A stretch of DNA of 64,000 bases from Sphingobium lactosutens DS20 (lineage in GTDB: Bacteria; Pseudomonadota; Alphaproteobacteria; Sphingomonadales; Sphingomonadaceae): positions 62,001 through 126,000 of the forward strand of contig NZ_ATDP01000092.1 of the NCBI RefSeq assembly GCF_000445105.1, written 5' to 3'. Both the position numbers and the translations under genes were made by a program. Of this stretch, positions 13,885-25,374 are shown in pieces. Each line of letters starts with the position of its first letter. The first letter of the stretch is position 1. Under the pieces are notes generated by a model. That model saw nothing but the letters and a program-made list of their open reading frames with translations, was not told the origin of the DNA and did not search any database.

Positions 13885-15294
<1,410 letters not shown>

Positions 15295-15298
15295 TGCG

Positions 15299-16231
15299 AT
15301 GCTGAGCCGGACCGCCGAAAATCTTTTCTGGATGGCGCGCTACATGGAACGCGCCGAAGCCACTGCGCGGCTGCTGACCATGGGGCAGCGCATGGCGATA
15401 CTGCCGGGCGCGCATCATCGCGACGAATGGCGGTCGGTGGTGCGCGCGACGGGGGCGGAATATCGCTTTCCAGAAGGCTCGACCGTGACCGAGAGCGACG
15501 CCGTCGCCTATCTGATGCTGGACCTCGACAATGCCAGCTCGATCCGGTCCTGTTTGTTGAAGGCGCGCGCCAATGCCAAGTCCGCCCGCACCATGTTGAC
15601 GCAGGATATGTGGGAAGCACTCAACGAGGGCTGGCGCAAGCTCGACAGCTATGACGTGGTTGAAGCGCGCCAACAGCTGCCCAGCCTGATCGACTGGGTC
15701 AAGACCCGCGTCATGACCTTTCGCGGCGCGGCCCATTCGGGCCAGTTGCGCAACGAAGGCCATGATTTCCTGCGCTGCGGATCGGCGCTGGAGCGGGCGC
15801 AGATGACGCTGCGCCTGCTCGACGTCAAATATTATGTCCTGCTGCCCGAAACCGAAGTCATCGGCGGCAATCGCGATCATTATCAATGGACCTCGGTGCT
15901 CTATGCACTGTCGGGCGCGCGCGCCTATCATCATGTCTATGGCGGCACCTATACCCCTTGGCAGATCACCGACTTCCTGATGCTCAATCGCCTGTTCCCG
16001 CGCAGCGTCGCCTATTGCTACGACCAGCTGGCCTACCGGCTCAATCGCCTGGCCGGCTGGCATGATGCCAAGGGGCCGTGTCACGACACGGTCAAGGACA
16101 TGGTGGCGGGCCTGGAAAGCCAGGACAGCGGCGAAATCTTCCGACAGGGTCTGCATGAGACCGTGCAGCATGGCCTGATGGTGACGAACAGGCTGGGGGC
16201 AGAGATCGCCCAGACCTATCATTTCGGCTGA
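15299..16231 (+). CDS. Alpha-E domain protein (DUF403)
   Basis: 310 residues, all-helical, with the family start MLSRTAENLFWMARYMERAEATARLL and the later RGAAHSGQLRNEGHDFLRCG segment. Alpha-E proteins almost always accompany the circularly permuted ATP-grasp protein, sometimes as a fusion, and are thought to be its partner. The start is four bases after the ATP-grasp stop codon, with AGGA upstream, so the pair is translationally linked. Biochemical function is not established. Confidence 0.9.
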   Translation: MLSRTAENLFWMARYMERAEATARLLTMGQRMAILPGAHHRDEWRSVVRATGAEYRFPEGSTVTESDAVAYLMLDLDNASSIRSCLLKARANAKSARTMLTQDMWEALNEGWRKLDSYDVVEARQQLPSLIDWVKTRVMTFRGAAHSGQLRNEGHDFLRCGSALERAQMTLRLLDVKYYVLLPETEVIGGNRDHYQWTSVLYALSGARAYHHVYGGTYTPWQITDFLMLNRLFPRSVAYCYDQLAYRLNRLAGWHDAKGPCHDTVKDMVAGLESQDSGEIFRQGLHETVQHGLMVTNRLGAEIAQTYHFG

Positions 16232-16250
16232 TAGCGCGGATGACCCCATC

Positions 16251-17123
16251 ATGAAGCTGATCGTCCGCCACCAGACCATCTACAGCTATGCCGCAGCCGC
16301 TGGCCGCGTCGCCATGCGGCTGAAGCTGATGCCGGTCGATACGCCCGCGCAGCGCGTGCTGGACTGGCAGGTATCCGTGAACGAGGAGCCGCTCACCAGC
16401 TTTCGCTCCAACAGCTATGGCGAAATGGAAGCGATCTGGGTGCGGCACGACCGGCTGGACCATGCCGTCATCGTGGCCGAAGGGCTGGTCGAAACCCAGG
16501 AGCGCCATGGCGTGCAGGGGCATCTGGGCAGCAAGGTCGATCCGCGCTATTTCCTGCGCGACACCCGCCTTACCCGCCCGTCCGAGGCGATAGCGGCAAT
16601 GGCCAGGTCCTTGCCGGCCGACGGCACTCCGCTTGGGACTCTGCATGCGCTATCGGCCGCGGTCAGCGACGCCATTCACTATCGCGCCGGCGTCACCACC
16701 GCCGACACATGCGCGGCCGACGCCTTCGCGCTGGGCGCAGGCGTGTGCCAGGACCATGCGCAGGTCTTCATCGCCGCCGCCCGCACGATCGGCATGCCGG
16801 CCCGCTATGTCACAGGCTATCTGCTCGCGGGCGAAGGCGACACGCTGCACGAAACCCATGGCTGGGCGGAGGCTTGGCTTCCGGACCTGGGCTGGATCGG
16901 CTTTGACCCGTCCAATCGCGTCTGCGTCACCGAACGCTATCTGCGCGTCGCCAGCGGCCTGGACGCCGACGACGCCGCGCCGATCCGCGGATCGGTGACG
17001 GTCACGGGCGACATCTGGATCGACGCCGACGTGCGCATCGCGCAGGCGCACGAGGGCGTGGAGGAACGGCAATTGCAGCGGCAACAGCAACAAAGCACAC
17101 CCCCACCCCAAGCAGCAGGTTGA
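16251..17123 (+). CDS. Transglutaminase-like cysteine protease family protein
   Basis: 290 residues. An N-terminal beta-rich domain (MKLIVRHQTIYSY) precedes a transglutaminase-like core with catalytic triad C166 (GVCQDHAQ), H203 (HETHGWAEAW) and D219 (GFDPSNRVC). In bacteria this fold usually acts as a peptidase or amidase. The last 20 residues are Gln-rich (QLQRQQQQSTPPPQ) and probably disordered. It sits between the alpha-E gene and the Anbu gene with short gaps, as in other genomes with this cluster, and may cut or recycle the product of the ATP-grasp enzyme (inference). Confidence 0.9.
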   Translation: MKLIVRHQTIYSYAAAAGRVAMRLKLMPVDTPAQRVLDWQVSVNEEPLTSFRSNSYGEMEAIWVRHDRLDHAVIVAEGLVETQERHGVQGHLGSKVDPRYFLRDTRLTRPSEAIAAMARSLPADGTPLGTLHALSAAVSDAIHYRAGVTTADTCAADAFALGAGVCQDHAQVFIAAARTIGMPARYVTGYLLAGEGDTLHETHGWAEAWLPDLGWIGFDPSNRVCVTERYLRVASGLDADDAAPIRGSVTVTGDIWIDADVRIAQAHEGVEERQLQRQQQQSTPPPQAAG

Positions 17124-17199
17124 AAATGGCGGTCGCACGTCGGATGGAGGGTCCGACGATTCGTCGATCGGGTCAATTGCATCGGGAGGCCGGGGGGCC

Positions 17200-17937
17200 G
17201 TGACTTATTGTGTGGCCGTGCGCGTCGACCAGGGGCTGGTGATGCTGTCCGACACCCGCACCAATGCGGGCATGGACAATATCGCACGCTTTCGGAAGAG
17301 CTTTACCTATCATGTGCCCGGCGAGCGGGCGATCACCCTGCTATGTTCGGGCAATCTGTCGATCACCCAGGGGGTGAAGTCGATGCTGAGCAAGGCGATT
17401 AAGGAATCGGCCTTCGACCCCGATGTCGAAACCATCCTCAATTGCGACACCATGTATCGCGTGGCGCAGATTGTCGGCGCGGCGATGCAGGCGATGCAGC
17501 AGCGCTATCGCGAAAATATTGAAATGGGCGGATCGGGCGCCAGCGCGTCGATCATGATCGCGGGCCAGCGCCGGGGCGGCAAGCCGCGCCTCTACCTCGT
17601 CTATTCGGCCGGCAATTTCATCGAGGCGACCGAAGACACGCCCTTCTTCCAGATTGGCGAGCATAAATATGGCAAGCCGATTCTCGACCGGATCATCGCC
17701 CGCGAAACCAGCCTGGAGGACGCGACCAAGGCGGTGCTGGTGTCGATGGATTCGACGCTGCGCTCCAACCTGTCGGTCGGCATGCCGCTGGATCTGGTCG
17801 TCATCCCGACCGACATGTTCGATTTTCGCGTCCGCACCCGCATCGAAGCGGATAATGAGGAATTCGCCCGCATATCGCAAAGCTGGAGCGCCGCCCTGCG
17901 CAAGGGATTTGAGGATCTGCCCAACGTGCTGGGCTGA
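17200..17937 (+). CDS. Anbu, proteasome-type peptidase
   Basis: 245 residues beginning GTG ACT TAT TGT, i.e. M-T-Y-C-V. Removal of Met exposes the N-terminal Thr nucleophile of the proteasome beta/HslV fold. The LVMLSDTRTNAGMDN segment and YSAGNFIEATEDTPFFQIGEHKYGKPILDR are typical of Anbu (ancestral beta subunit, COG3484), a self-assembling proteasome relative of unclear substrate. A GGGAGG site precedes the start by about ten bases. It is the last gene of the ATP-grasp, alpha-E, transglutaminase set. The conserved linkage suggests ATP-dependent peptide tagging or synthesis coupled to proteolysis. Confidence 0.92.
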   Translation: MTYCVAVRVDQGLVMLSDTRTNAGMDNIARFRKSFTYHVPGERAITLLCSGNLSITQGVKSMLSKAIKESAFDPDVETILNCDTMYRVAQIVGAAMQAMQQRYRENIEMGGSGASASIMIAGQRRGGKPRLYLVYSAGNFIEATEDTPFFQIGEHKYGKPILDRIIARETSLEDATKAVLVSMDSTLRSNLSVGMPLDLVVIPTDMFDFRVRTRIEADNEEFARISQSWSAALRKGFEDLPNVLG

Positions 17938-18011: not shown

Positions 18012-18039
18012 TGGACATCTTGGTCAGACGACCTATATA
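18012..18039 (+). promoter_or_regulatory. Probable tetR promoter
   Basis: -35 TGGACA (18012-18017, five of six to consensus), 16-base spacer, -10 TATATA (18034-18039). Transcription would begin near 18046, only a few bases before the tetR ATG at 18049, so the mRNA would be leaderless or nearly so. The palindromic operator overlaps the -10 and start site, fitting autorepression. Confidence 0.55.
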
Positions 18040-18050
18040 CCGATCGGTAT
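18037..18050. promoter_or_regulatory. TetR operator O1, ATACC-gatc-GGTAT
   Basis: A perfect 14-base palindrome overlapping the -10 region and the first two bases of the tetR start codon. The same half-sites with the same four-base gap recur twice upstream of the efflux operon (18688-18701 and 18737-18752), so this is almost certainly the binding site of the encoded repressor. Confidence 0.75.
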
Positions 18051-18687: not shown

Positions 18688-18701
18688 ATACCTACCGGTA
18701 C
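18688..18701. promoter_or_regulatory. TetR operator O2, ATACC-tacc-GGTAC
   Basis: Same half-sites and four-base gap as O1 with one mismatch in the last base. It lies upstream of the -35 of the efflux promoter, 49 bases (start to start) from O3. Confidence 0.6.
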
Positions 18702-18712
18702 AGAAAAGCCTC

Positions 18713-18740
18713 TTGACCGGACAGCTCCGGTTAATATATA
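18713..18740 (+). promoter_or_regulatory. Probable promoter of the RND operon
   Basis: -35 TTGACC (18713-18718), 16-base spacer, -10 TATATA (18735-18740). Operator O3 overlaps the -10, so repressor binding would block RNA polymerase directly. The expected start is near 18747. Confidence 0.6.
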
Positions 18741-18752
18741 CCGCCTGGTATA
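18737..18752. promoter_or_regulatory. TetR operator O3, TATACC-gcct-GGTATA
   Basis: Six-base perfect arms around four bases (16-base dyad), matching O1 and extending it by one base each side. It overlaps the -10 of the efflux promoter. Confidence 0.7.
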
Positions 18753-18786
18753 GAAGGAACTGGGCGCTGGCCCGGGGAGGTCAATC

Positions 18787-18822
18787 TTGAACAGCATTCC
18801 CATCATCATCCGCTGTCGCTGA
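18787..18822 (+). CDS. Putative 11-residue leader peptide MNSIPIIIRCR
   Basis: A TTG-started frame of 11 codons plus TGA, preceded at six bases by a very strong ribosome site GGGGAGG (18774-18780). It lies in the leader of the RND efflux operon, downstream of the promoter and operators. The end Arg-Cys-Arg fits the +X+ motif at which macrolide-bound ribosomes stall in erm leader peptides, and the three Ile codons could also slow ribosomes. A seven-base stem begins two bases after the stop. That it is translated and regulatory is inference from this arrangement; no homologue was searched. Confidence 0.5.
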   Translation: MNSIPIIIRCR

Positions 18823-18823
18823 C

Positions 18824-18924
18824 GGCGGGCTAGTGGCGCGCATCGGGTCCGCCCGGTCGCACCATTTTCATCATCACAGCCTGTTCCCCTGACGTGCAGC
18901 CGCGCGGTCAGACGGGACGGTCTG
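18824..18924 (+). promoter_or_regulatory. Candidate attenuator stem-loops in the RND leader
   Basis: Stem A pairs GGCGGGC (18824-18830) with GTCCGCC (18847-18853), seven pairs with one G-U. Further on, CTGAC (18889-18893)/GTCAG (18907-18911) and CAGAC (18909-18913)/GTCTG (18920-18924) overlap and cannot form together. The stems are short; a folding calculation with the leader peptide frame occupied or free would test the idea. Confidence 0.35.
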
Positions 18925-19031: not shown

Positions 19032-19424
19032 ATGGCTTTCCTTGATTTCAGCCAACCCATGGCCGGCCCCGCTCCGGTCGCGTCAACAGCGCAAGCGGTT
19101 GCCGGCCCCACCGACTTCACCCCGCAAGAATGGCAGATCGTCGCGCTGGCCCGCACCGATGGCCTACGGTCACTGCAGGGACCGGGGCGCTTCGTCCGCC
19201 TGCGCCGCTGGATTTTCGGCGAAGACACCAATTTGACGCTCGCCAGCGAAAGGCTGGAGGCGCTGCGCCGCCTGGCCGTCGAAGCCTGGCACCGCGGCTA
19301 TGCCGTATCGCTCTCTGCCCTGGCCGCCTTCCGCGCGGCCGGCTTTTCCACCGCGCAGCTGGAACTGCTGCTCGCCACCATCAGCGCGGGCCGTCATGCC
19401 CGCCCACGCCGGAGTTTTGCATGA
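19032..19424 (+). CDS. Hypothetical 130-residue protein, first gene of the RND operon
   Basis: No family recognised. The first 30 residues are Ala/Pro-rich; the rest is amphipathic helical (FTPQEWQIVALARTDGL, RLEALRRLAVEAWHRGY, STAQLELLLATIS). There is no signal peptide or membrane span, so a cytosolic role is likely. It starts with a strong AGGAAGGAG site and its TGA overlaps the ATG of the efflux adaptor (ATGA at 19421-19424), which ties its translation to efflux expression. The motif between 30 and 60 (QEWQIVALARTDGLRSLQGP) might be DNA- or protein-binding, but that is a guess. Confidence 0.75.
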   Translation: MAFLDFSQPMAGPAPVASTAQAVAGPTDFTPQEWQIVALARTDGLRSLQGPGRFVRLRRWIFGEDTNLTLASERLEALRRLAVEAWHRGYAVSLSALAAFRAAGFSTAQLELLLATISAGRHARPRRSFA

Positions 19425-20683
19425 ACCAGATGACCAAAATCACGACGGACGGCGCGCACGATGCAACTTCGCATGGGCCGCGCCGGCACTGGTCGCGCCG
19501 TCAGGGAGGGATCGCCGCAATCGCGCTGGTAGTGGCGCTGGGCGGCGTGTGGAAGCTGGTCGACAAACCGCAAGCGCAGGCGCAGGCGGCGCAGATCGCC
19601 ACGGTGGGCATATCCGCGCCGCTGCAACGCGCCGTGACGCAATGGGACGACTATGTCGGCCGCTTCGCCCCCAGCCAGACCGTCGACATTCGCCCGCGCG
19701 TGTCGGGCGCCGTGACCGCCATTCATTTTCAGGACGGCGATTATGTGCGCGAGGGCCAGCTGCTCTTCACCATCGACCAGCGTCCGTTCCGCGCCGCGCT
19801 GGCCGAAGCCCGGGCAAGCGTCGCATCAGCGCGCAGCGCGCTGCTGCTGGCGCAGAATGACTATGCCCGCGTCCAGCGCCTGACCGGCGACGAAGCGGTT
19901 TCCGCAAGCGAAGTCGATGCCCTGCGTTCCCGGTTGCAGGCGGCCCAGGCGGAGCTGGCGGGCGCGCAGGCGCGCGAACGCAGCCGCGCGCTCGACGTCG
20001 AATTTACGCAGGTTCGCGCGCCCATTTCCGGCCGCGTGTCGGATCGCCGCGTCGATATCGGCAATCTGGTGTCGGGGGCGGAGGGCAATGGTGCGACTCT
20101 GTTGACCACGATCAACAAGCTCGATCCCATTTACTTCAATTTCGACGCGTCCGAAGCGCTTTACCTCAAGTCGCAGCGGGATCAGGCCGATGGTGGCCTG
20201 GTCGAGGTGCGATTGCAGCATGAGGCCGATTATCGCCACAAGGGCAGGCTCGACTTTACCGACAATGGCCTTGATCCGCGATCCGGCACCATCCGCATTC
20301 GCGCGGTCTTTGCCAATCCCGACAATTTCCTGACGCCGGGCCTGTTCGGCAATATGCGCCTTGCCAATGGCGGGAAGGCGAACGCCCTGCTGGTGCCGGA
20401 CGCAGCGATCCAATCCGATCAGGCGCGCAAGACGGTGCTGGTCGTGGGCAAGGATGACAGCGTTGCCGCCAAGCCCGTCGAATTGGGACCCGTTGTCGAT
20501 GGGCTGCGCATCATCCGCAGCGGCCTTGACCCGCAAGACCGCGTCGTCATCACCAATGTTCAGGCGGCCATGCCCGGCGCCAAGGTCGCGACCCGGCCTG
20601 CGACGATCCGGCCTGCGCCGGCGCCCGTGACCCCTGTCGACAGCGTGGCCCCGGCCGCTGCGCAGGCGACGTTCGCCCGATAA
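19421..20683 (+). CDS. RND efflux periplasmic adaptor (MexE/AcrA-type)
   Basis: 420 residues. An uncleaved N-terminal anchor or signal (GGIAAIALVVALGGVWKLV, about 30-48) precedes the adaptor core: biotinyl-lipoyl half-motifs (VDIRPRVSGAVTAIHFQDGDYVREGQ and VRAPISGRVSDRRVDIGNLV, here given by their ends), an alpha-hairpin with Ala-rich repeats between them, and the beta-barrel domain. The C-terminal 40 residues are Ala/Pro/Val-rich. It bridges the inner-membrane pump and the outer-membrane channel. The start overlaps the preceding small gene by four bases (ATGA). Confidence 0.93.
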   Translation: MNQMTKITTDGAHDATSHGPRRHWSRRQGGIAAIALVVALGGVWKLVDKPQAQAQAAQIATVGISAPLQRAVTQWDDYVGRFAPSQTVDIRPRVSGAVTAIHFQDGDYVREGQLLFTIDQRPFRAALAEARASVASARSALLLAQNDYARVQRLTGDEAVSASEVDALRSRLQAAQAELAGAQARERSRALDVEFTQVRAPISGRVSDRRVDIGNLVSGAEGNGATLLTTINKLDPIYFNFDASEALYLKSQRDQADGGLVEVRLQHEADYRHKGRLDFTDNGLDPRSGTIRIRAVFANPDNFLTPGLFGNMRLANGGKANALLVPDAAIQSDQARKTVLVVGKDDSVAAKPVELGPVVDGLRIIRSGLDPQDRVVITNVQAAMPGAKVATRPATIRPAPAPVTPVDSVAPAAAQATFAR

Positions 20684-20770: not shown

Positions 20771-23700
20771 ATGCGCTTTTCCCGTTTCTTCATCGACCGG
20801 CCGATCTTCGCCGCCGTGATCGCGGTGGTCATCACCGTGGTCGGCGCGCTGGCCTTCATCGGCCTGCCGGTCAGCCAATATCCCGACATCGTGCCGCCCA
20901 CCGTGACGGTGTCCGCCCAATATCCCGGCGCATCGGCCGAAACGGTTGCATCGACCGTCGCTGCCCCGATCGAGCAGGAAATAAACGGCGTCGACGACAT
21001 GCTGTACCAGAGCAGCCAGTCGACCGGCGATGGCAAGGTGACGATCACCGTCACCTTCAAGATCGGCACGGACCTCGACGCCGCGCAGGTGCTGATGCAA
21101 AACCGCGTCGCGGTTGCCGTGCCGCGCCTGCCCGAAGAGGTGCAGCGGTTGGGCGTCGTCACGCGCAAGACTACGCCCGAATTCCTGATGGTCGTGAACC
21201 TGCAATCGCCCGACGGCACGTTCGATCGCAATTACCTGTCCAACTACGCGCTGACGCAGGTGCGCGACCGGCTGGCGCGGCTGGACGGCGTGGGCGATGT
21301 GCAATTGTTCGGGTCACGCGATTATGCGATGCGCATCTGGATCGACCCGGACCGGGCCGCCGCGCTGGACCTGACCGCGGGCGAGATCGTGTCGGCGCTG
21401 CGCGCGCAAAATGTGCAGGTGTCCGCGGGGTCAATCGGCCAGCCGCCCTACGACCGGGGCGAAGCCTTCCAGATCGGTGTCGAAATGCAGGGCCGGCTCA
21501 AGACGCCCGAGCAATTTTCCGACATCGTCATCCGCAGCGACGCCGACGGGCGACAAGTGCGCGTGCGCGACGTCGCCCGCGTCGAACTGGGCGCGCAGGA
21601 TTATGGCATCAACACCTATCTGTCGAACAAGCCCACCGTCGTCATCGCGGTGATGCAGCGGCCCGGCTCCAACGCGCTCGACGCGGCGGAAAAGGTGCAG
21701 GCGGAAATGGATCAGCTGTCGCAGCGCTTCCCCAAGGGGCTGGAATATAGCGTCATCTACAATCCCACCGAATTTATCAGCCAGTCGATCGACGCCGTCT
21801 ATCACACGCTGATCGAAGCGGTGCTGCTGGTGGTGCTGGTGATCCTCGTCTTCCTGCAGAACTGGCGCGCGGCGATCATTCCGATCATCGCCATTCCGGT
21901 ATCGCTGATCGGAACCGCGACGATCCTGGCGGGGCTGGGCTATAGCCTCAACAACCTGTCGCTGTTCGGGCTGGTGCTGGCGATCGGCATCGTCGTCGAC
22001 GACGCCATCGTCGTGGTCGAAAATGTCGAGCGCAATATCGAAAACGGCCTGTCGCCGCTGGAGGCCGCGCGCCTGTCCATGGACGAAGTGTCGACCGCGC
22101 TGATCGCGATCGTGCTGGTGCTGTGCGCGGTGTTCGTGCCGACGCTGTTCATCACCGGCATTTCAGGCGCCTTCTATCAGCAGTTCGCCGTCACCATCTC
22201 GACCGCGACGGTCATCTCGCTGATCCTCTCGCTCACTTTGTCGCCGGCGGCCGCCGCGCTGCTGCTCAAACCTAAACATGGCCCCCGCGACCGCAGCGGC
22301 GATCCGGTCTGGCGGCAGAAACTGGGCCAGGGCGCTGACGCGTTCAATCGCGGGTTCGACCGGATGAGCGCGGGCTATGGCCGGCTAACCCGCTTCCTGG
22401 TCGCACGGCCCAAGAAGATGCTGCTGACCTATGCGGGCCTGATCGCCGCCACCATCGCCCTGTTCTGGGTGACGCCCGGCGGTTTCATCCCGGCGCAGGA
22501 TCAGGGCTATTTCCTGGCCGTCGTCCAGCTGCCTTCGGGCGCGTCGCTGGAGCGCACGGACAAGGTGACGCGCGAGGTCGCGGAGAAGATCCTGCCGATC
22601 AAGGGCCTGCGCGGCGCGGTGATGTTCGCCGGCTTCCATGGCCCGTCGCAGACGCAGGCCCCCAACAGCGCCGCCATCTATTTCCCGTTCAACAGCTTTG
22701 CCGAGCGGGAGAAGGAAGGCGTCACCTATGCGGGCATCATGGAGCAGGCGAACAAGGCTGTCGCGGGCTATGACAAGGCGCGCATCCTGCTAGTCCCCCC
22801 GCCGCTCATCCAGGGCATCGGGTCCGCCGGCGGCTATCGCATGATGCTGGAGGACCGGGAGGGGCGCGGCTATGCCGACCTCAACAAACAGGCCAATGAC
22901 CTGATTGCCAAGGCGAACCAGTCGCCCAGCCTGTCGATGGTCTACACATTGTTCGACGTCGGTACCCCGCGCGTCTATGCCGATGTCGATCGCCGCAAGG
23001 CCGACCTGCTGGGCGTGCCGCCCGAACGCATCTTCGAAGCGATGCAGGTCTATCTCGGCTCCGCCTTCGTCAACGATTTCAATCTGCTCGGCCGCACCTA
23101 TCGCGTCACCGCGCAGGCCGATGCGGACCATCGCGGATCAGTGGCGGATATCGCGAACCTCAAGACCCGCTCCAACAGCGGGCAGATGGTGCCGATCGGG
23201 TCTGTCGCGACTTTCGAGGACAAGACCGGTCCCTATCGCGTGGTGCGCTACAATCTGATGCCCGCGGTGGAAATCGATGGCGACACGGCGCCGGGCTATT
23301 CGTCGGGCCAGTCGCTCATGACGATGGAGAAGCTCGCGGCACAAGCGCCGTCCGGCTATGGCGCGGAATGGACGGGCGTCGCCTTCCAGCAGAAGAGCGC
23401 GGGCAATACCGCAGGCCTCGTCTTTGGCATGGCGGTGTTCTTCGTCTTCCTAGTGCTGGCGGCGCAATATGAAAGCCTGACGCTGCCGCTGTCGATCATC
23501 CTGATCGTGCCGATGTGTCTGTTCGCGGCCATGCTGGGCGTGAACCTGCGGGGGATGGACAATAATATCCTGACGCAAATCGGCCTGGTCGTGCTGATCG
23601 CGCTGGCGGCAAAGAACGCCATCCTGGTGGTCGAATTCGCCAAACAGGCGGAGGAAGACCAGGGCCTGTCGCCCATCGAGGCGGCAGTTCAGGCGGCGCA

Positions 23701-23956
23701 GACCCGGTTGCGGCCGATCCTGATGACCAGCTTCGCCTTCATCCTGGGGGCGGTGCCGCTGGTGATCGCGAGCGGCGCGGGCGCGGAATTGCGCCAGGCG
23801 CTCGGCACGGCGGTCTTCTTCGGGATGACCGGCGTCACGGCCTTCGGCCTGCTCTTCACCCCCACCTTCTATGTCGTGTGCCGCGCGCTGGGCGATCGTT
23901 TCGCCCGTCGCCGGCCCGGGCAGGCGGACGCCAGCGCAATCCAGCCCGCCGAATGA
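20771..23956 (+). CDS. RND multidrug efflux permease (HAE1, MexF/AcrB-like)
   Basis: 1061 residues, normal length for HAE1 pumps. It begins MRFSRFFIDRPIFAAVIAVV (TM1), contains the large periplasmic loops, the TM2-TM6 block with VLAIGIVVDDAIVVVENVER carrying the paired proton-relay aspartates, and the second half with NILTQIGLVVLIALAAKNAI (relay Lys). It exports amphipathic drugs by proton antiport. Many sphingomonad and pseudomonad relatives pair with a MexE-type adaptor and NodT-type channel exactly as here. Control is inferred to be by the TetR repressor at 18049-18657. Confidence 0.95.
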   Translation: MRFSRFFIDRPIFAAVIAVVITVVGALAFIGLPVSQYPDIVPPTVTVSAQYPGASAETVASTVAAPIEQEINGVDDMLYQSSQSTGDGKVTITVTFKIGTDLDAAQVLMQNRVAVAVPRLPEEVQRLGVVTRKTTPEFLMVVNLQSPDGTFDRNYLSNYALTQVRDRLARLDGVGDVQLFGSRDYAMRIWIDPDRAAALDLTAGEIVSALRAQNVQVSAGSIGQPPYDRGEAFQIGVEMQGRLKTPEQFSDIVIRSDADGRQVRVRDVARVELGAQDYGINTYLSNKPTVVIAVMQRPGSNALDAAEKVQAEMDQLSQRFPKGLEYSVIYNPTEFISQSIDAVYHTLIEAVLLVVLVILVFLQNWRAAIIPIIAIPVSLIGTATILAGLGYSLNNLSLFGLVLAIGIVVDDAIVVVENVERNIENGLSPLEAARLSMDEVSTALIAIVLVLCAVFVPTLFITGISGAFYQQFAVTISTATVISLILSLTLSPAAAALLLKPKHGPRDRSGDPVWRQKLGQGADAFNRGFDRMSAGYGRLTRFLVARPKKMLLTYAGLIAATIALFWVTPGGFIPAQDQGYFLAVVQLPSGASLERTDKVTREVAEKILPIKGLRGAVMFAGFHGPSQTQAPNSAAIYFPFNSFAEREKEGVTYAGIMEQANKAVAGYDKARILLVPPPLIQGIGSAGGYRMMLEDREGRGYADLNKQANDLIAKANQSPSLSMVYTLFDVGTPRVYADVDRRKADLLGVPPERIFEAMQVYLGSAFVNDFNLLGRTYRVTAQADADHRGSVADIANLKTRSNSGQMVPIGSVATFEDKTGPYRVVRYNLMPAVEIDGDTAPGYSSGQSLMTMEKLAAQAPSGYGAEWTGVAFQQKSAGNTAGLVFGMAVFFVFLVLAAQYESLTLPLSIILIVPMCLFAAMLGVNLRGMDNNILTQIGLVVLIALAAKNAILVVEFAKQAEEDQGLSPIEAAVQAAQTRLRPILMTSFAFILGAVPLVIASGAGAELRQALGTAVFFGMTGVTAFGLLFTPTFYVVCRALGDRFARRRPGQADASAIQPAE

Positions 23957-23967
23957 GGACGTAAATC

Positions 23968-25374
23968 ATGACAAGGACTTTCATCACCCTGCTGCTTGGC
24001 GCCAGCGCGCTGACCGCCTGCGCCGCCGGGCCGGATTATCGCCCGCCCGTAACGCGCACCAGTGCGGCCGCCCCTTTCATCGGAGCGGAGGACCCGGCGG
24101 TCGCACAAAGCCCGGCGCAGGATCATTGGTGGCGGCTCTATGACGATCCGCTGCTCGACACGCTGGTGCGGGATGCGCTGGCGGCCAATACCGACATCCG
24201 CGTCGCGGTCGCCCGGCTGGAGCGCGCCCGCGCCCAGTTGCGCGGCGCGCGATCGGACCGGCTGCCCAGCACGACGCTCAGCGGATCGCCGACCTATGGC
24301 CGCGCGTCCCAGGCTCAGACGCTGCCCGGCATGGATCGGGAAAACTGGACCATCGATATGGGACTGAACGTCGCCTATGAGGTCGATCTGTTCGGCCGGG
24401 TCAAACGGTCGATCGAGGCGGCACGCGGCGACACTGCGGCGGCCGCCGCCGATGCCGACGCCGTCCGGGTAGTAGTGGTGGCCGATACGGTGCGCGCCTA
24501 TGTCGACGCCACCGCCTCGGCCGAACGGATCGCTGTTGCCCGTCAGACGGTGGATTTGCTCGACCGGTCGTTACGCATCACCCAGGCCCGCTTTGACGTC
24601 GGCCGGTCGGACCGGCTGGACGTGGTGCGGGTGACGTCGCTGCGCGATCAGCAGGCCGCGCTCATCCCGTCGCTGGAGGCCGATCGCAACGCCGCCCTGT
24701 TCCGCCTTGCCACATTGACCGGCCGCACGCCGCAGGACCTGCCGGACGCGGTGCGCGCGGCGCGGCAGACGCCCGACCTGACACAGCCAATTCCGGTCGG
24801 CGACGGCCGCGCGCTGCTGGCGCGACGGCCCGACGTCCGGGCGGCGGAGCGGCGGCTGGCGGCGGACACGGCGCGGATCGGCGTGGCGACCGCCGATCTC
24901 TATCCCCGCATCACGCTGGGCGGATCGGTCGGCACGACGGCGATTGGCGGCGGCAATCTGTTTGGCGGCGGCCCGTTGAACTGGTTGCTGGGACCGTTGA
25001 TCAGCTGGGCCTTCCCCAACCAGGAGGCCAATCGCGCCCGCATCGCCGCGGCGCGCGCCGATGGCGACGCCGCGCTCGCCAGCTTCGATGGCACGGTGCT
25101 GCGCGCACTGGAGGAAACGGAAACGGCGCTATCCAATTATGCGCAAGCGCTGTCCCGGCGCGCCGCGCTCCAGACCGCGCGGGACGAAGCCGCGCGGGCG
25201 GCGCGCATCAGCACGGCGCGCCAGCGGGAGGGGCGGATCGATTTCCTGACCGTTCTCGACGCGCTGCGCACCCAAGCAGCGGCCGACGCAGACCTGGCGA
25301 GCGCGGACCGCACCGTCGCCTTCGCGCAGGTCGACCTGTTCCGTGCACTGGGCGGCGGCTGGACGGAGGGTTAA
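23968..25374 (+). CDS. Outer-membrane efflux channel lipoprotein (NodT/OprM family)
   Basis: 468 residues. A lipobox ending at C18 (LTAC) is followed by AGPDYRPP, the usual start of NodT-type channels. Two repeats of long helices (ADAVRVVVVADTVRAYVDA and the LRALEETETALSNYAQALSRR region) alternate with beta strands. It completes the tripartite pump with the two upstream genes; the start follows the permease stop by 11 bases with GAGGAC upstream. A stem-loop follows the gene. Confidence 0.92.
   Translation: MTRTFITLLLGASALTACAAGPDYRPPVTRTSAAAPFIGAEDPAVAQSPAQDHWWRLYDDPLLDTLVRDALAANTDIRVAVARLERARAQLRGARSDRLPSTTLSGSPTYGRASQAQTLPGMDRENWTIDMGLNVAYEVDLFGRVKRSIEAARGDTAAAAADADAVRVVVVADTVRAYVDATASAERIAVARQTVDLLDRSLRITQARFDVGRSDRLDVVRVTSLRDQQAALIPSLEADRNAALFRLATLTGRTPQDLPDAVRAARQTPDLTQPIPVGDGRALLARRPDVRAAERRLAADTARIGVATADLYPRITLGGSVGTTAIGGGNLFGGGPLNWLLGPLISWAFPNQEANRARIAAARADGDAALASFDGTVLRALEETETALSNYAQALSRRAALQTARDEAARAARISTARQREGRIDFLTVLDALRTQAAADADLASADRTVAFAQVDLFRALGGGWTEG

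Follow-up and report, generated by a model that had tools for sequence, protein, structure and literature searches.

We report that the leader of an RND efflux operon in Sphingobium lactosutens DS20 carries a tiny open reading frame (uORF), and that this frame is conserved together with the ribosome site, the length class and the association with the 130-amino-acid first gene of the operon. That the uORF is real and conserved we consider highly probable. As to its role, translation of the frame, what it senses and the step by which it acts on the operon are what we infer, and our preferred reading, to which we assign a probability of about 0.4, is that the uORF senses the status of translation, largely independently of its peptide sequence, and not one drug through one motif.

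If this is true, a whole bacterial family would possess a translation-coupled layer of control on a TetR-controlled multidrug pump, and induction of the pump could track ribosome trouble generally, beyond the substrates of the pump. The target, 36 bases long, is easily mutated and, together with about 30 natural variants, offers a test of whether a uORF acts without a specific arrest peptide.

The efflux locus and its promoter

The window analysed here is a stretch of 64,000 nucleotides, in which an HAE1 RND multidrug operon stands beside a TetR gene; the TetR repressor, the adaptor, the HAE1 permease and the outer membrane channel are all present (Table 1). For the repressor the top NCBIfam model was MtrR, with a score under the model cut-off. 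The protein encoded by the first gene of the operon matched nothing in Pfam or NCBIfam at 0.001, and DUF1127 gave no match either. It is 98% identical to the protein of the S. abikonense locus, and homologues of its gene were found in 77 of 397 family genomes (E <= 1e-10), with adaptor matches in 160 of the 397 (E <= 1e-70). Structure comparison of a model of the 130-amino-acid protein (mean pLDDT 71.9) returned no match at 0.001; the model ranks weakly near the AhpD/carboxymuconolactone decarboxylase folds (best E 0.098), despite which the protein contains no Cys. A separate run of genes at 13885-17937, which we take to resemble an Anbu cluster (ATP-grasp-like, alpha-E, transglutaminase-like), ends in a proteasome-type protease (17200-17937, PF00227), the one member of the run that the profile search covered.

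The promoter of the efflux transcript was not detected by a sigma-70 consensus scan; its pattern recurs upstream of orthologous operons (Table 1), and from its position the leader would be about 285 bases long. Among 30 orthologous operons scanned, many are preceded by operator-like palindromes resembling TACCTACCGGTA. At the other end of the repressor gene, the palindrome TATACCGATCGGTAT overlaps the tetR ATG (18049) and TATATA lies nearby (18034-18039), so that tetR may control its own expression from a transcript with almost no leader.

Table 1. Features of the efflux locus, with positions in the window
Feature	Position	Strand	Basis
TetR-type palindrome TATACCGATCGGTAT at tetR start	18036..18050	.	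sequence; putative binding site
tetR, TetR-family repressor gene, 202 aa	18049..18657	+	PF00440 E 1.4e-13, PF16925 E 9.3e-7
Palindrome TACCTACCGGTA, upstream operator-like copy	18689..18700	.	sequence
Promoter, TTGACC (18713-18718) ... TATATACC (18735-18742)	18713..18742	+	pattern shared by 57 of the 102 upstream regions of orthologous operons
Palindrome TATACCGCCTGGTATA, operator-like, covering -10/start region	18737..18752	.	sequence, orthologous regions
Hairpin H1 (CTGGGC-GCTG-GCCCGG), before and into ribosome site	18760..18775	+	A-U for G-C replacement in relatives
Ribosome site of uORF, GGGGAGG	18774..18780	+	SD energy -12.0; GGGAGG/GGGGAGG in 15 of 15 genus leaders
uORF, MNSIPIIIRCR, TTG start (18787-18789), TGA stop	18787..18822	+	genus and family conservation
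Hairpin H2 (CCGCTGTC-GCT-GACGGCGG; arms 18810-18817/18821-18828), spanning last codons and stop	18810..18828	+	RNAalifold: 9 pairs, 2 changed on both sides
Hairpin H3, UNCG or GNRA tetraloop, ending in TTTT in the window	18832..18866	+	C-G to G-C replacements in core; -19.6 kcal/mol
C-rich, G-poor stretch, possible Rho loading site	18849..18888	+	99.2th percentile of 40-nt windows
Operon gene 1, 130 aa, no family match	19032..19424	+	profile searches
RND periplasmic adaptor	19421..20683	+	TIGR01730 over cut-off; top model MexE, under its cut-off
RND permease, multidrug (HAE1) type	20771..23956	+	NF000282 and TIGR00915 over cut-off; PF00873
Outer membrane channel, NodT type	23968..25374	+	TIGR01845 over cut-off; PF02321

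Conservation of the reading frame within the genus

A first-pass annotation, made from the sequence of the window, had picked out the GGGGAGG site (18774-18780) and an 11-codon frame from TTG (18787-18822), and both are present as read: TTG AAC AGC ATT CCC ATC ATC ATC CGC TGT CGC TGA, 11 codons before the stop. A search of 94 genus genomes with the leader DNA gave a match in 16, one of which (G033) was excluded, its 53-base match lying near a contig end and the first gene being absent from the fetched stretch. In the window and 14 relatives, that is, in all 15 genus genomes with the leader, the ribosome site, a start 5-6 bases downstream of it, a frame of 10-11 codons and the stop are kept, as is a Cys among the final three residues, and the conservation on which the annotation had staked its proposal is thus confirmed for frame and ribosome site alike. 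One group within the genus has CGA in place of TGA, with TAG as the following codon, which favours selection for a stop.

Read with the first codon as M, the genus peptides are MNSIPIIIRCR, MNNIPIIIRCR, MNVIPIIFRCR, MHDISITCRCR, MQHIHQDRPCR, MQQF(HH/NL/KH)RRCRR, MRHNLKHSRCC, MRHNLKYRRCC, MRHTLKHWRCC and MQHYPTTSCR, to which a genus member lying further away (G080; L037 and L102) adds MQDRGCRQ. Twelve of the 13 entered the motif count given below, MNNIPIIIRCR being omitted. Cys stands among the last four residues of all 12 and, by eye, among the last three of all 13.

A covariance model of the leader, run against the genus genomes with stricter filters, matched once per genome, and by coordinates at this operon, in 15 of the 94, with one more, weak hit in a sixteenth genome (G089, E 0.0026); a dispersed RNA motif is rejected or weakened on these grounds. 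An Rfam search of the DNA returned two tRNAs and no leader family. The ribosome-site pattern found 69 loose matches (<=2 mismatches) in the source genome, against 6 for the reversed control.

Orthologous leaders across the family

The wider survey took in 102 upstream regions, made up of 30 best-match loci, 60 further rows by score (one row at a contig end being skipped among these) and 12 genus loci. The 45 that lack the promoter pattern were dropped, and the 57 that carry it comprise 46 distinct leaders. With a uORF defined as an ATG frame of 4-15 codons, with SD <= -5 kcal/mol and +40 to +80 from TATACC, a zone chosen after inspecting the sequences, 29 of the 46 leaders contain one; 40 dinucleotide shuffles gave 1.1 on average and never more than 3. 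Allowing GTG and TTG starts, the version in which the window's own uORF enters the count, raises this to 32 of 46, shuffles then averaging 2.9 and reaching 7 at most. By hand tally, a uORF occurs in one or more leaders of 18 of the 22 genera in which the promoter is found, the exceptions being g53, g64, g91 and g102.

The uORF goes with the 130-amino-acid gene, being found in 30 of 37 leaders that have the gene and in 2 of 9 that do not (Fisher p 0.0016, uncorrected for relatedness and with five genus leaders set as having the gene). The 7 leaders among the 37 that fall outside the uORF definition count against our reading, although one of them, L187, does so only because its ribosome site scores weakly.

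Of the 26 non-Sphingobium-type uORFs, 12, from six genera by our tally, have exactly six codons before the stop and encode differing peptides, such as MKNPIQ, MKTLAL, MKMATS, MVTAAT, MTGTIT and MIRPTC. In composition, with 20 residues tested, these 26 uORFs are slightly over-represented in Cys (9 against 3.7 expected, p 0.012) and over-represented in Thr (30 against 18, p 0.006), Thr being the final residue before the stop in 6 of them.

The retention of frame and ribosome site in the genus and the recurrence of tiny ORFs throughout the family make a uORF in the leader of this RND operon well supported, and the presence of similar micro-genes in the same slot of many related genera implies that the uORF probably reads the state of the ribosome. 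A broader proposition, which we offer as possible though doubtful, is that sphingomonads carry an ancestral RND operon with a micro-ORF of 5-15 codons between an operator-bearing promoter and a first gene of about 130 amino acids, the existence and length of the micro-ORF being selected and its peptide mostly not, so that it would serve as a peptide-independent ribosome gauge coupling translation inhibitors generally to a multidrug pump.

The encoded peptides

The first-pass annotation had proposed that macrolide-bound ribosomes stall at the terminal Arg-Cys-Arg. As an alternative to our reading, this amounts to macrolide or ketolide arrest at a +X+ motif (Arg/Lys-X-Arg/Lys) in the manner of the erm leaders, opening the operon through a switch of stems. 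The motif is present in the window peptide and in 6 of the 11 other distinct genus peptides, and +X+ in leader uORFs is reported to cause such arrest in ErmDL (PMC8298421). It is missing, however, from the remaining 5 of the 12 genus peptides, which end in RPCR, SRCC, WRCC, SCR and GCRQ, and from 27 of 35 family peptides, a set that does not include two of the MQQF variants, both with +X+. Since no more than 7 of 12 genus peptides and 8 of 35 family peptides have the motif, the general role is unlikely to be that of a dedicated macrolide trap, and +X+ arrest as a general mechanism is rejected or at least weakened by this lack of conservation. These leaders thus lack the conserved arrest motif, such as +X+, that an erm-type leader would have; what they share with that type, as their conservation suggests, is a short uORF that precedes the regulated gene and has a ribosome site of its own.

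Selection on the codons points the same way. In a crude count over three groups of three close relatives, which take in 9 of the 11 coding sequences typed and give small numbers of changes, the body of the peptide gave pN 0.174 against pS 0.100, a value of pN that is inflated because codons with any residue change were scored entirely as non-synonymous. There is no sign of purifying selection in this count, which fits a role of translation and not of the peptide. The last three sense codons, by comparison with the body, show no change at all within the three groups, synonymous or otherwise. We conclude that the ORF and its ribosome site are selected and that the peptide, it seems, mostly is not; the RC[R/C] ending and the Cys in all 12 genus peptides are the observations against this, and through them the peptide could yet have a role.

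Structure of the leader RNA

RNAalifold of 14 genus leaders gave the hairpins H1, H2 and H3 (Table 1), with 8 of 23 pairs having a sequence in which both sides are changed; 3 of the 23 are long-range and were not relied on, and some of H1 is shifted by one column in the alignment. Compared with shuffles, the stop-spanning segment has a mean z of -2.08 in seven distinct Sphingobium-type leaders (6 of 7 below -1), against 0.09 in 26 other leaders (6 of 26 below -1), one of which, L102, belongs to the same genus.

The last codons of the frame form part of this hairpin, and H2 may account for the constant RC[R/C] ending. Taken further, the ending would be a by-product of a functional RNA hairpin, for example a protein-binding site, to which the ORF is secondary. 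The unchanged last codons in the three groups and the mean z of the seven leaders are in keeping with such a hairpin, but tiny ORFs persist elsewhere in the family without it, and the leaders L062 and L037 keep Cys-Arg while the hairpin sequence changes, and we judge this explanation improbable.

A seven-base stem starting just after the stop had been put forward as the switch that a stalled ribosome would operate. The pairing does exist, in that GGCGGGC (18824-18830) and GTCCGCC (18847-18853) can be drawn as a 7-pair stem, but it is no part of the predicted fold, H2 and H3 together being more stable: the segment 18811-18872 reaches -29.7 kcal/mol in its best fold against -22.1 kcal/mol with the stem forced, and masking the first H2 arm leaves H3 as the most favourable structure. 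For this lesser stability the stem is rejected or weakened as a switch. Among the elements whose conservation the annotation had looked to, the ribosome site is kept, the particular codons of IIIRCR are not, and the stem 18824-18853 is outcompeted in folding, the last of which tells against macrolide arrest as well.

Possible routes from the reading frame to the operon

In our preferred reading, the frame at 18787-18822 would be a uORF that is translated close to the start of a TetR-controlled efflux transcript. A ribosome would load on the very strong site right behind H1, make a disposable peptide some 6-11 residues long and depart. Under normal translation the long untranslated leader would then favour low expression, through premature and probably Rho-dependent termination, through decay, or both. 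Drugs or a shortage of ribosomes would slow initiation or early elongation and leave a ribosome parked on a short 5' segment, and this ribosome would alter access to the leader or protect the message, so that the pump operon would rise on top of its control by TetR.

Folding of 12 leaders bears on the output step. When the bases that a ribosome stalled on the last uORF codons would cover are masked, accessibility of the first gene's ribosome site shifts by no more than 0.08, up or down, so that the occupied and free states, which had been expected to reveal switching, scarcely differ at the main ribosome site. Unmasking of the 130-amino-acid gene's ribosome site by such a stall, a further property of erm-type leaders, is rejected or weakened on these folds, and with the main site hardly affected by a simulated stall, macrolide arrest is, in our view, about as improbable as a functional H2. 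With the ribosome masked at the start codon instead, access to the first gene's site rises by at least 0.05 in 6 of the 12 leaders and falls by at least 0.07 in 2.

Transcription termination offers another route. A trp-type attenuator that senses whether charged tRNA for Cys or Arg is in good supply, its alternative structures being H2, the 7-pair stem and H3-TTTT, would draw on the Cys in the last four residues of all 12 genus peptides and on the terminator-like run of H3 into TTTT in the window. The T-run directly at H3, however, occurs only in the window and its near twin L059 among 14 aligned leaders (L102 has a different hairpin followed by TTTT), and a conserved intrinsic terminator is accordingly rejected or weakened. 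Terminator-like sites are only in slight excess overall (9 of 33 leaders; 20 shuffles averaged 4.6 and did not exceed 7), masking the first H2 arm does not displace H3, and Cys supply has no evident link to an efflux pump; we regard tRNA sensing as very improbable. In L062 (Sphingobium sp. C100), GCAGAC-GGGGCG-GTCTGC followed by GCTTTTTT forms an intrinsic-terminator-like element roughly 110 bases upstream of the first gene; no such T-run occurs there in the other aligned genus leaders.

For Rho, the candidate site is the C-rich stretch of Table 1. It is unexceptional for this DNA, its excess of C over G being matched by 403 of 2000 random 287-nt segments at 40 nt and by 1098 of 2000 at 78 nt, and this, together with the lack of a predicted structural switch, stands against a sensor of translation status. 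In favour of that sensor, a C-rich, G-poor stretch lies behind the uORF in the genus, and the best 35-nt window after the uORF favours C over G in 25 of 33 leaders (22 of 33 at 50 nt); in a control from the end of tetR, G is on average favoured over C. As between Rho-dependent termination and protection of the mRNA as the output, the putative Rho site speaks weakly for the former.

Protection might also suffice by itself, H1 and a ribosome tightly bound on the tiny ORF blocking decay at the 5' end, with the peptide and the downstream leader irrelevant. In the 26 leaders that are not of the Sphingobium type, the segment before the SD tends to form a stable hairpin (mean z -1.34, 14 below -1), the SD energy is -10 or stronger in 13 of the 46 leaders, and in S. 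meliloti the mRNA is stabilised under tetracycline, an effect that the authors ascribe to ribosomes trapped at starts (PMC12218461). In the seven leaders of the Sphingobium type itself, however, H1 is weaker against shuffles (-0.65), and protection leaves the stop-spanning hairpin of that type, H3 and the long leader unexplained. We consider protection as the sole mechanism unlikely, and sensing of translation status remains the reading that we prefer.

Comparison with known systems

MexZ, the repressor of MexXY, is of the TetR type, and mdtJI encodes an SMR-type exporter. A literature search, with subscription papers mostly outside its scope, gave no such sphingomonad leader among the matches listed. 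The macrolide leaders of the ErmDL type (PMC8298421) resemble the present one in their very short uORF and, for the window, in +X+ near its end; they differ in that the motif here is not conserved and no switch is predicted. B. pertussis cruR (PMC9426467) likewise combines a uORF with Rho-dependent termination, here only a candidate, and involves Cys, but its product is long, is exported and has the motifs CXXC and RAPP, and the response is to copper.

Two further systems concern exporters. In E. coli mdtU-mdtJI (PMC7815308) a uORF lies in the leader of an exporter operon (278-nt in mdtU) and acts through Rho-dependent termination, for which the present leader offers only a candidate site; the mdtU uORF, however, has 34 codons and a conserved C-terminus and responds to spermidine. 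P. aeruginosa PA5471.1 - armZ (PMC12057347) ties ribosome-targeting drugs, through a leader peptide, to a repressor-controlled RND pump, MexXY, as we propose here, but acts on the gene of an anti-repressor and not on the pump transcript, with terminators proposed; the arrangement appears unique to MexXY in the account given by that review.

The nearest documented logic, by analogy, is that of the S. meliloti DUF1127 leader, in which translation of a uORF controls a probably Rho-dependent termination, the RNA and not the peptide matters, with synonymous changes acting like deletion, and tetracycline relieves the attenuation and so induces (PMC12218461). The duf1127-1 leader too is alphaproteobacterial, with a uORF and ribosome site near its 5' end before the gene of a small protein, with C-rich elements and with a drug response, which in the present case is our proposal (PMC12218461). 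It differs in heading a DUF1127 gene where the leader described here heads an RND operon, in a longer uORF, stops at codons 15 and 17 having been tested, and in the position of the first of its two attenuation elements, which lies inside the uORF, unlike here (PMC12218461).
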